IMG/VR virus record: IMGVR_UViG_3300045107_000772
Location: 1 to 48,742 of that record
DNA: 48,742 nt
Source: a virus
Strand: one strand, 5' to 3'
Below are positions 4,071-48,742 of this stretch, one piece after another. The notes beneath the pieces are model-generated. The model was not told the DNA's origin. It worked only from the letters and a program-made list of their open reading frames with translations, and did not search any database. Within the stretch, counting starts at the first letter, position 1. Each line of letters opens with the position of its first letter. The translations under genes were made by a program, and so were the position numbers.

Positions 4071-5522
4071 GTGTCAGACGTCGACCAAAAGCACCCGTCC
4101 TGGAGCGAGCACGCCGAGTTCTGGGAAAGAATAGAACTGCTGCACCGGGGCGGAGAGGCGCTGAAGAAGCAAGCCGCCCAGTTCCTGGTGGCGCGCCCCG
4201 CCGAGGCGCAGAAGGTGTACCAGACGCGGCTGCAGCGCTTCACGTATCAGAACATCCTGGGCACGGTGGTGGGGTGGTACGAGAGCCGGATGTTCCGGGA
4301 CGATCCGCAGATTTTCCTGAAGGACGCGGCGGGCGAACAGTCCACGGATGCGTTCTACCCGCGGTTCCTCGCGGACGCCGATCGGCGCGGCACGTCGCTG
4401 ACGGCGATGGCGCGAGAGTGGTTCCGGCGGTGCCTGCTCGACGGGGCGGTGTACGTGCTGACGGACCTGCTGCCGGGAGCGAGAGATGCGCCCAACCGCT
4501 TCGAGCAGCGGCACACGGGCGGGCTGGATCCGTTCCTAGTGACGTTCAGCGCGAGCCAGGCGATCAACTGGGGTACGGACCGGTACGGAAACCTGGAATG
4601 GATCGTGCTGGCGACGTCGGCCCTGCGCCATGGCTTTCAGAAAAAGGCGGAGACCGTCGACACCTGGTGGTACTTCGACCGGGATGTTTATCGCCGGTAC
4701 GAAGCGCGGCGGGAAGACAACGGCAATGCCGCGGAACCGAGGCTGGTGGATGAGGGAAAGCACGCGCTGACGGGCAAGCGGGTGCCGGTGCGGCGGATAT
4801 CGGTGCCGGCAGGCCTCTGGATCGGCTACCGGATCGCGCCGCAGATCCTCGACCACTTGAACCAGGACAACGCGCTGGGCTGGGCGCTGTTCATGGGGTG
4901 CCTGGCGGTGCCGGTGATCTCGGGGAACTACGCGGAGAACCCGCAGATTTCGGAGGCGGGCTGGATCCTCCTGGAGAAAGGCAGCACGTTCGGGTGGTCG
5001 GAGCCGACGGGCAGCAGCTTCGAGCATGCGGCGCGGCGGGTGGAGCACCTGCGCGAGGAGATCTACCGGCAGGCGTACTTGCAAGCGCAAGGCCGCAGCA
5101 CGCAAGCGACGCCGGCGGCGCAGAGCGGGATCTCGAAAGAGATGGACATGGCGCCGTCGACCGACGTGATGAACGGATTCGGGCGCATCTTCCGGGACGC
5201 TCTGAAGGCGGTGCTGGAGGACGTGGTGAGCGTGCGCGGCGAGGAGCTGGCGGTGGATGTTTCCGGTCTGAGCTTCCCCGAGCGCGAAGTGCTGGCGGAG
5301 ATCGAGGTGGCGAAGGCGGCGCTGGACTTGCAGATCCCGAGCGACACCTACCGGCGGGTGGTGATGAAGACGGCCTACCGGCAGTATGTGAACAACGCGG
5401 ATCCGAACACTTTGAAACAGATCGATGCTGAAATCGAAGCCGCGCCGAGCGCGGCAGAGCAGGCCGCGCAGACGCGGGAGCAGATGAGAAAGGACTTCGC
5501 CGCGGCGCTGGACCGGCGGTAG
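4071..5522 (+). CDS. Portal protein
   Basis: A 483-residue protein starting at GTG 4071, directly after the preceding stop. It forms the dodecameric ring through which DNA enters and leaves the capsid and on which the terminase docks. Support: position between terminase and scaffold/capsid, normal portal length, and portal-like composition (N-terminal WSEHAEFWERIELLHRGGEA, a Trp/Tyr-rich wing region around residues 150-220, and a long helical C-terminal region from about residue 310 with an acidic, Ala/Gln-rich tail). It resembles the DUF4055/SPP1 gp6-like class rather than HK97 gp3. No catalytic residues are expected. Confidence 0.8.
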   Translation: MSDVDQKHPSWSEHAEFWERIELLHRGGEALKKQAAQFLVARPAEAQKVYQTRLQRFTYQNILGTVVGWYESRMFRDDPQIFLKDAAGEQSTDAFYPRFLADADRRGTSLTAMAREWFRRCLLDGAVYVLTDLLPGARDAPNRFEQRHTGGLDPFLVTFSASQAINWGTDRYGNLEWIVLATSALRHGFQKKAETVDTWWYFDRDVYRRYEARREDNGNAAEPRLVDEGKHALTGKRVPVRRISVPAGLWIGYRIAPQILDHLNQDNALGWALFMGCLAVPVISGNYAENPQISEAGWILLEKGSTFGWSEPTGSSFEHAARRVEHLREEIYRQAYLQAQGRSTQATPAAQSGISKEMDMAPSTDVMNGFGRIFRDALKAVLEDVVSVRGEELAVDVSGLSFPEREVLAEIEVAKAALDLQIPSDTYRRVVMKTAYRQYVNNADPNTLKQIDAEIEAAPSAAEQAAQTREQMRKDFAAALDRR

Positions 5523-5534
5523 GGAAAGGGGCAT

Positions 5535-6230
5535 ATGTACAAGTTCTGGTTACGGGGTCCGCTGATGGAGGGGGAGCCCGGCGCGGGCGGCGGCGGGGGC
5601 GGCACGATCGACGCGAAGGCGATCGCGGCGGAGATCAGCAAGGGCCTGGCTGCGTCGCTGGCGACGGCGGTGAGCGAGGCGGTAAAGGCCGCTCTGCCGA
5701 AGGCGGAGCCGCCGGCGGGAGGCGACGGATCCGGTAGCGGCGAAGGCGGAGACCCCAAGAACAAGGGCAAGGAAGGCGACGATCCCCGGTTTGCGCAATT
5801 GGAACGCGACCTGAAGAAGACACGCGACGAACTGGCGAACGAGCGGCTGGAGCGCGAGAAGGCGTCGAAGGCGGCGGAGGAAAGCGAGCGGCATTCGCTG
5901 ATCCGGAGCGCGCTGGGCGGGTACGAGTTCGGGACGGAGAAGGCGCGCGACACCGCTTTCCGGATCTTCCGGGACGAGGTGGTGCGAGGCAAAGACGGGA
6001 AGCTCTACGGCCCGGACGCCGAGACGCCCTTCGGGGATTACATCAAGGGGCAGATGGAGAAGGAGCACGAGTACCTGCTGAGGCCCCGGGACGTGGGCGG
6101 CGCCGGGGCGCAGAACGGCGGCTCGCGCCGGCCGACGGCGTTCGAACTGGAAGACATCAAGCCTGGGATGAGCAAAGAGGTTCGGGAGGCCGCGCGCCAG
6201 GCGATCGCGGCGCACCTCCCCCAGAAGTAG
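5535..6230 (+). CDS. Capsid scaffolding-like protein
   Basis: A 231-residue protein immediately upstream of the major capsid gene. The layout is typical of a scaffold: an Ala/Gly-rich low-complexity N-terminal region (residues ~15-75, with Gly runs), a strongly charged coiled coil (about 80-125, RFAQLERDLKKTRDELANE), and a C-terminal helical part. Scaffolds guide capsid assembly and are then lost or cleaved; no protease was identified here. The assignment rests on position and composition, not a specific motif. Confidence 0.65.
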   Translation: MYKFWLRGPLMEGEPGAGGGGGGTIDAKAIAAEISKGLAASLATAVSEAVKAALPKAEPPAGGDGSGSGEGGDPKNKGKEGDDPRFAQLERDLKKTRDELANERLEREKASKAAEESERHSLIRSALGGYEFGTEKARDTAFRIFRDEVVRGKDGKLYGPDAETPFGDYIKGQMEKEHEYLLRPRDVGGAGAQNGGSRRPTAFELEDIKPGMSKEVREAARQAIAAHLPQK

Positions 6231-10560: not shown

Positions 10561-10718
10561 AGCGTCCGGCGGGACTCCCAGTCCCCGCATTCCTTAAACC
10601 CTGGAGGGTGCGTAGAGGGGAGATTCTCTACTTCGGACGCCCGATTCCAGTATGGCAAGCCAAGCAAGTTTACGCACTTCGAGCGGGCGGGACGCCGTGC
10701 GCCACGTGGCCGAGCTGA
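10557..10718 (+). CDS. Small hypothetical protein overlapping the next gene
   Basis: A 53-residue frame opening at GTG 10557, which overlaps the previous stop (GTGA), as is usual in this genome. The middle (RRGEILYFGRPIPVWQAKQ) looks protein-like, and bases 10570-10650 have no other good coding frame. It runs ~67 bases into the gene starting at 10652. It could instead be a decayed N-terminus of that gene in another frame. Confidence 0.4.
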   Translation: MKRPAGLPVPAFLKPWRVRRGEILYFGRPIPVWQAKQVYALRAGGTPCATWPS

Positions 10719-45145: not shown

Positions 45146-45625
45146 ATGGACCCAGCGGAGGTTGAGCAGTACGCAGGGATCGTGCGATCCATGGCGCGGG
45201 GACTGGCCCATCAATTCCGGGCGCCCGCGGAGGATCTGGAGCAAGAGGGCTTCGCCGCTTTGATGGCGGTCATGCAGAAGCTGCGGCCGGAGACGGCGGG
45301 AGCGTACATCCGGATGCGGGTGCGGGGAGCGATGCTGGACAGCCTGGCGCGGGAGCGCCGGCACCGGCACGAGGAGCTGGCGGAGGAGGCGGGGCGGTCG
45401 GCGGCGCCGGATCCGGAGGCGGCGGCCGAGGCGGCGGAGCGCCGGGAACGGCTGGCGCGGGCGGTGGCGGAGCTTCCGGAGCGGCAGCGCGCGGTGGTGG
45501 AGCTGCGGCTGGGGCAAGAGCTGCCGCAGAGCCAGGTGGGGCGGGCGTTGGGGATCGCGCAGCCGGCGGTGTCGCAGCTCGAGAGCCGGGCGGTCCGGCG
45601 GCTGCGGGAGGCGCTGGCGGGGTGA
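45146..45625 (+). CDS. Sigma-70 family RNA polymerase sigma factor
   Basis: A 159-residue sigma factor. Region 2 signals: DLEQEGFAALMAVMQKLRPE and YIRMRVRGAMLDSLARERR. Region 4: LPERQRAVVELRLGQELPQS, then QVGRALGIAQPAVSQLESRA with VRRLR, a standard -35-reading helix-turn-helix. Region 1.1 and a full region 3 are missing, so it is an alternative sigma of FliA/SigF- or ECF-like size. Likely redirects host RNA polymerase to phage late promoters. It stands divergent from the XRE regulator and upstream of the late region. Confidence 0.85.
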   Translation: MDPAEVEQYAGIVRSMARGLAHQFRAPAEDLEQEGFAALMAVMQKLRPETAGAYIRMRVRGAMLDSLARERRHRHEELAEEAGRSAAPDPEAAAEAAERRERLARAVAELPERQRAVVELRLGQELPQSQVGRALGIAQPAVSQLESRAVRRLREALAG

Positions 45626-46068: not shown

Positions 46069-46544
46069 CGTGGGATCTGGTTGCATCCCGCGCCTACCCC
46101 GGGCACTGGCACGTGGAGGCGGTGCTGCCGGATGGAGCGGTGGCGGTGGCGGTGTTCTCGGGACCGGACGCAGAGCAGTGGGCACGGGCGTATCTGGCCT
46201 GGAAGAAAGAGGAGGGTGCGATGGAAGTTCTGAACGCATTGGGATTCTTGCTCGAAGACCGGGTGCGGACCGGCGACAACCGGGCGGCCGAAGAGGCCGG
46301 GGAGCACCTGGTGCGCGTACGCGCGCTGGCAAAGTCGCTGGAGCGGCTGCCTCCGTTGGCGCCGGCGGAGCCCGGCGCGCCCGGAATCGTGGGCATGCTC
46401 GGCGGCGGCGGACAGCCGGCGGACCTGGCCTACGAGGAGCACCTGACGAAGCTGCGGCAGCGAGAGATGGAGATGGCGATCCGCGAGATGGAGCGCCAGA
46501 AGGCGCAGGCCGATGACGGCGCGGGAAGCAAAGCCGACGGGTAA
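46065..46544 (+). CDS. Hypothetical protein
   Basis: A 159-residue protein from GTG 46065. The first ~50 residues are strands (VASRAYPGHWHVEAVLPDGA), the rest long acidic helices ending in a coiled coil (LTKLRQREMEMAIREMERQK). An in-frame ATG at 46221 could start the helical half alone. Precedes the structured leader region. Confidence 0.5.
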   Translation: MTWDLVASRAYPGHWHVEAVLPDGAVAVAVFSGPDAEQWARAYLAWKKEEGAMEVLNALGFLLEDRVRTGDNRAAEEAGEHLVRVRALAKSLERLPPLAPAEPGAPGIVGMLGGGGQPADLAYEEHLTKLRQREMEMAIREMERQKAQADDGAGSKADG

Positions 46545-46562
46545 GCAGGTTTTCCATATAAA
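46534..46562 (+). promoter_or_regulatory. Putative promoter of the structured leader
   Basis: TATAAA (46557-46562) in an AT-rich pocket, with CCGACG (46534-46539) 17 bases upstream. The -10 is good, the -35 weak (3/6). Transcription would begin at the first hairpin (46569). A phage sigma factor could use a different -35. Confidence 0.5.
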
Positions 46563-46568
46563 AAACTC

Positions 46569-46750
46569 GCCGCCCCGTTAAGAGTTCGGGGAGCGGCGGG
46601 TACACTCGTACAGAATTGCGCCACGGTCCGTTCCGTGGCGGCCCAGTCCGAGGAAAGGGCCGGACGCGCTCGAAGGGCGTCCTAAAACCGCCACCTGGCG
46701 GCGCGGCGAGGCCGCGAATCCGACTCCCGGTTACCCGAGACAGTAGAGGT
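46569..46750 (+). ncRNA. Hairpin-dense structured RNA / leader candidate
   Basis: About 180 bases with no plausible protein and at least eight inverted repeats: GCCGC-CCCG/CGGG-GA-GCGGC (46569-46597), GTAC/GTAC (46600-46611), CGCCACGG/CCGTGGCG (46619-46640), GCCC/GGGC (46641-46660), GGACGC/GCGTCC (46662-46682), CCGCC/GGCGG (46688-46701), CGCGGC/GCCGCG (46702-46716), and CTC-GG/CC-GAG (46724-46739). Stems adjoin almost end to end, as in ribosomal leaders, riboswitches or cis-acting antitermination RNAs. It ends where the ribosome-binding site of the next gene begins (46746). Not a match to any RNA I can name with confidence. Confidence 0.6.
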
Positions 46751-46755
46751 GCATC

Positions 46756-47100
46756 TTGCCGGAGCCCGAGGTCTACGCCGAGCGCTTGGAGGTGCTGGGC
46801 GCGGAAGGCGAACACGTGCGCTGGGTGGACGAAGAGCAGGCGCGAGACCTGGTGAAGCGCGGGGTGGCCGCGGTGCGCCGCACCAAGCGCCGGATCCGGG
46901 CGCTGCAACTGGTGCCTGCCGCCGCGCGGATTGACGAGGCCGGCGGGCGGCGGGACCTGAAGAACCGCGGGCTGCAGGCGGGCGCCGCGCATGCATGCGA
47001 AACGCAGAAGAACCCGCGCGGGGTGTGGACGATCGAGAAGCTGCCGGCTTCGACCCGGGACATATTTCTGGCGGTGGTCGAGGATTGCCGGGCGGCATGA
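46756..47100 (+). CDS. Hypothetical protein downstream of the structured leader
   Basis: A 114-residue protein, TTG 46756 with AGAGGTG just ahead, so its translation depends on the folded leader. Basic, helical N-terminal half (VYAERLEVLGAEGEHVRWVD; DLVKRGVAAVRRTKRRIRAL) and a strand-rich end (GVWTIEKLPASTRDIFLAVV). Overlaps the sigma-like gene (ATGA). Could be a regulator; no family is recognised. Confidence 0.5.
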   Translation: MPEPEVYAERLEVLGAEGEHVRWVDEEQARDLVKRGVAAVRRTKRRIRALQLVPAAARIDEAGGRRDLKNRGLQAGAAHACETQKNPRGVWTIEKLPASTRDIFLAVVEDCRAA

Positions 47101-47369
47101 GGGATTTCGCCGCGCCCGGCCCCAGTCCCCTGGACCAGGCCGCGGCGGCCGAGGCCAAGCGGTTGGTGCGCAGCGCGGTGGCGGGCCTGCCGGAACGGCA
47201 GCGGCTGGTGGTGCTGCTGGTGTACCGCGAAGAACGCAGCTTTACGGCGATCGCGGCGGACTGGCACGTGTCGGTGGCGGCCGTGTGCCAGGCGCATACC
47301 CGGGCCCTGCGCCGCCTGCGGGCGGCCATGATCGCGGCCGGGGTAGCTCAGCTCAACGAGGTGCTATGA
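47097..47369 (+). CDS. Sigma region-4-like HTH protein
   Basis: A 90-residue protein from ATG 47097. Contains AAAEAKRLVRSAVAGLPERQ and RLVVLLVYREERSFTAIAAD, then WHVSVAAVCQAHTRALRRLR, the fold of sigma-70 region 4 without region 2. Without a -10-binding domain it cannot be a full sigma factor; it might be an activator, an anti-sigma-type appropriator or an antitermination factor. Located right after the structured leader and coupled to the genes around it (ATGA overlaps). Confidence 0.8.
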   Translation: MRDFAAPGPSPLDQAAAAEAKRLVRSAVAGLPERQRLVVLLVYREERSFTAIAADWHVSVAAVCQAHTRALRRLRAAMIAAGVAQLNEVL

Positions 47370-48231: not shown

Positions 48232-48742
48232 ATGGCGCACCTCCTCGAACAACTGTACGAGCTCGTCCCCGTCGCCAGTCTGCGCTGGCACCCGGCGAAT
48301 CCCCGGAAAGGGGATCTGCCAGCGATCGGCGCGAGCATCCGGGCGAACGGGTTCTACGGCGCGGTGGTCGCGCAGCGCGGGACCCGGTACGTCCTGGCCG
48401 GGAACCACCGGTGGGAGGCGGCGAAGCGCGAGGGCCTGGAGCTGATTCCGGTGATCTGGCTGGACGTCGACGAGGCAACGGCTCTCCGGATCCTGGCGGC
48501 GGACAACCGGACGAACGACCTGGCCGGGTACGATGAAGCCGCGTTGGCGGAACTGCTGCGGCAGATCCAGGCGGACGGAGAGCTGGCGGGATCCGGCTAT
48601 GACGAAGCCGCGTACCGGGAGGCCATGGCGGCGGCCGGGCTGGCCGGCGAGCCAGGGAGCTCGCACGGTCTGTTACGTGGAGAGAGAGATCGCGAACATC
48701 GCGGTTTTGGCAGCGCGCATGCGGGGGGGGGGGGCTCATTCC
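48232..48742 (+). CDS. ParB/Srx-like nuclease-domain protein (cut by window seam)
   Basis: A ParB-like N-terminal domain protein, ATG 48232, running off the end. Landmarks: VPVASLRWHPANPRKGDLPA, IGASIRANGFYGAVV, then AGNHRWEAAKREGLELIPVI, the GxxRxxAA-type box, and AADNRTNDLAG. Phage ParB-like proteins sit beside DNA methyltransferases and are thought to act in DNA modification or protection, with possible nicking or NTPase activity. The same frame re-enters the window at base 2: with 13 G it stops at 140-142, with 12 G it would fuse in frame to the methyltransferase. The usual C-terminus is not seen. Confidence 0.8.
   Translation, partial: MAHLLEQLYELVPVASLRWHPANPRKGDLPAIGASIRANGFYGAVVAQRGTRYVLAGNHRWEAAKREGLELIPVIWLDVDEATALRILAADNRTNDLAGYDEAALAELLRQIQADGELAGSGYDEAAYREAMAAAGLAGEPGSSHGLLRGERDREHRGFGSAHAGGGGSF
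48609..48742. repeat. Terminal direct repeat (circular overlap), right copy
   Basis: Identical to bases 1-135 except for one fewer G (12, at 48723-48734). It confirms a circular map but makes the reading frame at the ParB/methyltransferase join uncertain. Confidence 0.9.

Follow-up and report, generated by a model that had tools for sequence, protein, structure and literature searches.

At the entry to the late genes of an acidobacterial phage lies a stretch without genes; does it hold a structured RNA, and if so, what could that RNA do there? The window analyzed here is the whole 48,742-nucleotide sequence, a phage record (IMG/VR IMGVR_UViG_3300045107_000772, positions 1 to 48,742; G000). 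An earlier note, made from the window's letters, had described eight adjoining stems at 46534-46756, between two sigma-like genes, and had proposed a cis-acting element controlling the entry into late transcription.

Genome context and homologues of the locus

No gene is found in 46545-46755, the interval that separates a gene with its end at 46544 from the TTG-started gene at 46756, and 46534-46756 folds strongly (MFE -101.3 kcal/mol, z = -3.2), as the earlier note had held. Pfam and family assignments bear out the neighbors that it named, which include a sigma-70 factor, a region-4 protein, ParB-N, and the terminase:

45146-45625, plus strand: upstream sigma-70-like gene with regions 2 and 4 (Pfam Sigma70_r4 1e-14, Sigma70_r2 3e-9)
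46756-47097, plus strand: first gene of the late operon, 114 aa, with a PLMP/IF3-N-like N-terminal fold and a C-terminal H..ET..NP.GVWT motif
47097-47369, plus strand: second gene of the late operon, a sigma region-4-only protein (Pfam Sigma70_r4 1.5e-11)
48232: ParB-N, by family assignment in the window
1553: terminase, by family assignment in the window

The ends of the window repeat each other over about 140 bases (1-140 and 48600-48742), with one G difference in a poly-G tract; IMG/VR calls the record linear, yet it is probably a complete circle. On such a map, the leader RNA lies upstream of the terminase and head genes (1-27 kb). For the poly-G tract, which falls in the parB-methyltransferase region, a sequencing slip and a phase-variable run are both possible. 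Elsewhere in the window, a skipping-rope RNA (RF02924, 52 bits, E 1.3e-9) lies on the minus strand at 10561-10641, antisense to the late genes and between two ORFs.

Homologues of the locus were collected with the large terminase as bait, which yielded 160 related loci, the genome loci being mostly from Bryobacterales and other Acidobacteria. A blastn search with the RNA region identified L082, L003, L002, L004, and L083; pattern and model searches added L167 and L008, a profile of the first downstream gene added L005, and a protein-alignment search added L185, L193, L189, L188, L192, and L199, the last being nearly identical to L004 and located in a Bryobacteraceae genome. The resulting set comprises 14 distinct RNA members, the window and 13 related loci, from phages and prophages that are mostly acidobacterial. 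Pattern matches in L163, L164, L166, L168, L170, and L180-L183 were judged to be chance, since the neighboring elements are absent there.

The module appears to be sparsely distributed in the collections searched. The R1 search of 396 Acidobacteriota genomes matched only in the genome of L082; the first gene is absent from nearly all of the 399 genomes of that genome's class and from 295 of the 296 genomes in the phylum of L083's host bin, and it has no match among 50,697 phage records. Similarly, single-sequence searches of IMG/VR with the first gene and with gene 45664 returned no close relatives. L083 (SCTG01000197.1) is a Nitrospirae-binned contig that carries a module otherwise seen with acidobacterial loci, reflecting either a prophage host or a binning error.

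Across members, the usual gene order is sigma factor, 45664-like gene, promoter, RNA, first gene, sigma-region-4 protein, (ParB/methyltransferase), terminases, and portal, and the unit of promoter, RNA, and first gene accompanies at least two different terminase lineages. Homologues of the sigma gene at 45146 lie upstream of the RNA in most members, and in L008 a LuxR/response-regulator-like gene (1285-2052) occupies that position.

Leader RNA and its promoter

The conserved elements of the locus, all on the plus strand, are the following:

46578-46606: promoter, GTTAAGA-N17-TACACT, with hexamers and spacer conserved among members (-35 TTAAGA at 46578-46583, 17-bp spacer, -10 TACACT at 46601-46606)
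46611-46619: predicted transcript start with conserved (C)AGAATTGC, the predicted +1 being at about 46613
46613-46735: conserved structured leader RNA of 123 nt, from 14 homologues and covariation
46620-46639: hairpin P2, GCCACGG / CCGTGGC, variable in sequence and always paired
46640-46661: hairpin P3, GGCCC / GGGCC, with conserved loop AGTCCGAGGAAA; covariation
46648-46654: strand 1 of the probable pseudoknot, in the P3 loop, CCG-(A)-GGA, almost invariant and complementary to 46725-46730
46662-46682: hairpin P4, GGACGC / GCGTCC, with loop GCTCGAAGG; covariation
46688-46701: optional hairpin P5, CCGCC ACCT GGCGG, from the member alignment
46702-46716: optional, variable hairpin P6, CGCGGC GAG GCCGCG, from the members' paired sequences
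46725-46730: strand 2 of the probable pseudoknot, TCCCGG within GAATCCGACTCCCGGTTACC, a conserved 3' segment; near-invariant across the 12 members aligned

A structured RNA is thus retained from the earlier description, with other bounds and another count: in the window we find five hairpins (P2-P6) and a probable pseudoknot within 46613-46735, rather than eight stems over 46534-46756. Among members, the RNA measures 91-150 nt and has three to five hairpins. Its lengths vary modulo 3 and its stop codons are placed differently, so no protein reading frame is conserved through it; together with the compensatory changes in the stems, this goes against both refuting conditions that the earlier note had set, stems without compensation or a conserved reading frame.

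The case for structure is carried by covariation, because folding energies are modest relative to shuffles and are weak evidence at 69% GC. The transcript 46613-46735 has z = -2.4, and values across members range from -0.4 to -3.1, with L185, L189, and L193 (-0.4 to -0.8) no better than shuffles. In an alignment of P3 and P4 from 11 sequences, the covariation score is 0.325 versus 0.132 in shuffles, and none of 500 shuffles reaches it; when the pairing partner is shifted by 1-3 columns, 29-43% of the cells are paired, down from 91%. Misalignment of L008, L185, and L193 in P4 makes this a conservative count.

Individual helices follow the same pattern. P2 is fully paired with differing sequences in 13 members; in L192 its arms, scored with a one-base register error, pair over 12 bp by eye. 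Pair 4 of P3 is GC in six sequences, CG in three, and UA in one, and the loop motif CCG-N-GG is present in all members except L189 and L192. In P4, four of the six pairs show changes on both sides; the helix is paired in 13 members, with none assigned in L005. P5 reads CCGTC/GACGG in L082 and GCAACC/GGTTGC in L167, and P6 is paired with differing sequences in L002, L003, L004, L083, and L167; both are missing from L008, L185, L193, and L189. Judged from these alignments, the leader RNA is real, and P2, P3, and P4 covary. In L188 (about 640-720), the start of the leader including P2 is nearly duplicated in tandem, GGGATGGAA..CGCGCTCCTGACCGGAGCGG occurring twice.

The pairing of the P3 loop with the 3' segment is a probable pseudoknot, and only probable because both strands hardly vary. 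In L189 the strands are CGUGG/CCACG, with bases changed and pairing kept, and L083, which has lost the bulged N of the P3 loop, forms the pseudoknot helix in its MFE structure. A closing helix P1 (AAUUG/CGGUU) was dropped, being partly broken in L083 and L167 and competing with the pseudoknot.

In agreement with the earlier note, which could name no known RNA class, the covariance models of Rfam 15, at the gathering cut-off and up to E = 10, gave only chance matches for the RNA region, the best being snoZ206 (E 0.76), mostly upstream of the RNA. Comparisons by eye with HDV, twister, and RNase P gave no match.

The promoter is found at the same place in nearly every member. Their alignments show a TTAAG-like -35, a 17-bp spacer, a TANACT/TANAAT -10, 6-7 nt, and then an RNA starting with GAAUUG or similar; the spacer is 17 bp in 12 of the 14 members, 18 in L192, and unclear in L188. 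With one mismatch allowed at most, TTAAG-N18-TANACT has a single match in the window, where 0.07 would be expected. The element has the -35 and -10 hexamers and the 16-18 bp spacer of a sigma-70-type promoter, and it matches 8 of the 12 consensus positions in the window and 7-9 in other members (4 of 12 in L188). Given this conserved pattern, the first hairpin once predicted, at 46565-46601, is promoter DNA: it spans the -35 and the spacer, lies outside the transcript, and is not conserved. Likewise, the TATAAA at about 46557, formerly taken as the promoter box, lies upstream of the -35 and is not the -10. A palindrome over the promoter (46568-46598, minus strand) reads as a minus-strand intrinsic terminator (CGCCGCTCCCC...GGGGCGGCG AGTTTTTT) and is conserved in the closest relative only.

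In the window, the predicted RNA start lies 6 nt past the -10 TACACT. CAGAAT at 46611-46616 can be read as a -10-like NANNAT element, and in 10 of the 14 members a NANNAT falls within -2..0 of the predicted +1. Elements of this class cause sigma-dependent pausing before the action of Q and put (PMC6606751, PMC9378689); here conservation of the motif at the RNA level is an equally good account.

The downstream protein and possible roles of the leader

At its 3' side, the RNA is tied to one gene family. The first-gene family lies downstream of the RNA in 14 of 14 members, and the association holds in both directions: L167, found by RNA pattern alone, carries the gene (1/1), and the six close homologues found by protein only (L185, L188, L189, L192, L193, and L199) all carry the RNA. 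The earlier note had offered the sigma-like proteins as partners of the RNA; its tightest partner is instead the gene at 46756-47097, and in L008 the upstream sigma gene is replaced. The sigma-70-like gene 45146 is a candidate reader of the leader promoter. More distant first-gene homologues (L202-L204 in Bryobacteraceae genomes, and L197) have other leaders that also look rich in hairpins; loops there seem complementary to segments farther on, and a wider class of leader-protein pairs is possible.

AlphaFold models (9 and 18 sequences) predict with confidence, at the N-terminus of the first-gene protein, a unit of four strands and one helix. In Foldseek searches against the PDB, two models have the PLMP domains of IsrB and IscB as top matches (E 0.014-0.015), with IF3 lower; PLMP has been described as IF3-N-like (PMC9581776). 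Profile-profile comparison with hhalign puts the match to 11 IscB N-termini at 69-77% probability; seven control families and reversed profiles do not exceed 0.5%. HMMER found no match for the protein, which has no sequence match to IscB in the PDB, no Pfam domain, and no RuvC or HNH within its 114 aa; a search for RRXRR (PF14239) in Bryobacteraceae gave no match and, since its controls gave none either, is uninformative. Nor is the small fold peculiar to this family: other short phage proteins match it. This weak to moderate likeness to PLMP/IF3-N, a resemblance of modeled folds and not membership, suggests contact with RNA or the ribosome.

What role could such a pair play? The reading that we tentatively place first, while giving it somewhat less than an even chance, is a cis-acting leader of the late operon that probably acts on RNA polymerase together with the downstream protein. 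RNA polymerase would start at the promoter at 46578-46606, probably directed by a phage-encoded sigma factor; the first 123 nt would fold into the P2-P6 hairpins, with the P3 loop pairing onto the 3' segment as the probable pseudoknot. By analogy of anatomy with HK022 putL or lambda nutL, the RNA would most likely act in cis on the polymerase, allowing read-through of pauses and terminators in the late operon of about 29 kb. The small basic protein of the first gene would most likely be the cognate RNA-binding factor, in the way that N serves nut, a role suggested by its co-occurrence with the RNA and its PLMP/IF3-N-like fold. The functions of promoter, RNA, and protein given here are ones that we infer.

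Antitermination is the leading idea owing to four features: the lambda PL-nutL-N layout, the placement of putL, the NANNAT element, and strong intrinsic terminators inside two operons. These terminators lie in L005 at 5827-5862 (a 14-bp stem and T6, with the parB start about 20 nt further on) and in L185 at 4339-4360, directly after the first gene. On the plus strand of the window, from 46735 to the late genes, no strong intrinsic terminator was found, and the density of such terminators is not raised in RNA-bearing sequences (8 in 189 kb versus 93 in 1,592 kb of RNA-less relatives).

The main rival, a possibility we consider clearly less likely, is translational or autogenous control, in which the first-gene product (or the ribosome) would bind the RNA and set translation of the first gene, late transcription being unaffected. 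It owes its rank to a start codon that keeps a fixed distance from the RNA and in most cases has no Shine-Dalgarno: the usual or ancestral start lies 13-15 nt past the RNA end in most members, and a Shine-Dalgarno is missing at the first-gene start in six of nine. The strict pairing of the RNA with one gene family and the resemblance of the fold to a domain of a ribosome-binding factor also fit. However, under a crude choice of starts, Shine-Dalgarno sequences are uncommon elsewhere in these phages too, and no alternative fold that sequesters the start was found. Moreover, in the window, L082, and L004, the start has shifted 7 nt downstream and has a GAGG motif (in the window and L082 it is a TTG after GAGG), yet the RNA is unchanged. 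The structure does not end at the ribosome-binding site, as had been supposed; the conserved unit stops at 46735, leaving about 13 nt to the position of the ancestral start.

Two further readings appear improbable, the second slightly more so. A separate trans-acting small RNA, for instance 6S-like or base-pairing, that merely precedes the operon would account for a promoter placed exactly at the 5' end and for the compact fold with conserved loops, but no terminator follows 46735, and the same gene always lies on the same strand within about 15-21 nt. A small-molecule riboswitch for the late genes would likewise suit the conserved loops, the pseudoknot, and the placement before a start codon, but an aptamer core would seldom vary or lose parts as the P4 loop, P5, and P6 do (L008, L185, and L192), no expression platform is seen, and the linked gene encodes a phage protein rather than one of metabolism. 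Least credible of all is a nuclease-less OMEGA relative, in which an omegaRNA-like scaffold and a PLMP-only protein would form an RNP switch for the late genes and link omegaRNA/PLMP ancestry to a phage regulator of transcription or translation: the fold and profile matches and the position of the RNA 5' of the ORF, as in HEARO, speak for it, whereas the missing RuvC and HNH domains, an RNA far below the ~300 nt of IsrB omegaRNA (PMC9581776) with no room for a 5' guide, the lack of a covariance-model match to HEARO (up to E = 10) or of a sequence match to IscB in the PDB, and the other short phage proteins that share the fold speak against it.

Comparison with known systems

We return to the preferred reading, a cis-acting leader of the late operon, to compare it with known systems. 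HK022 put sites are about 70 nt long with two stem-loops, serve early operons, and need no protein factor; putL lies just downstream of its promoter (PMC9378689). Our leader shares with putL a structured RNA at the 5' end of the transcript, promoter-proximal on a long operon, and a -10-like element near the start. It differs in its 91-150 nt, its three to five hairpins and probable pseudoknot in place of two stem-loops, its position before late genes, and its tie to one downstream gene. The earlier proposal of a cis element at late entry in the style of put therefore stands as regards a conserved structured leader and its placement, and fails in sequence, size, and hairpin number.

The lambda PL-nutL-N arrangement has the same order of promoter, RNA site, gene for a small basic protein, and operon; however, a multi-hairpin RNA stands here in place of the short boxA/boxB site of nut, and a folded beta-alpha domain in place of the disordered peptide N. 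With the pR'-Q systems of lambda and 21, the locus shares a late-operon promoter and a -10-like element in the first transcribed bases, but Q binds promoter DNA, its leader has not been described as a conserved multi-hairpin RNA, and no Q homologue was found here. HEARO/omegaRNA with IscB/IsrB likewise places a pseudoknotted RNA 5' of an ORF with an N-terminal PLMP domain, where the present pair has a probable pseudoknot and a fold that resembles PLMP; it differs in having nuclease domains, a guide, and a larger RNA.

Set beside these systems, the leader is a previously uncatalogued structured RNA with a tightly linked protein family and, as far as sequence comparison reaches, a new and conserved 5' leader at the late operon of an acidobacterial phage group. 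It adds to the record an RNA family absent from Rfam, with clear covariation, from uncultivated acidobacterial phages, and, with the protein family that co-occurs at every site, it provides a pair of RNA and protein that can be tested where the late operon begins. The PLMP/IF3-N-like link could inform the origin of the RNA-binding part of IscB-type proteins. If the leader acts as an antiterminator, it would represent an RNA antitermination element outside the known lambdoid set of nut and put.
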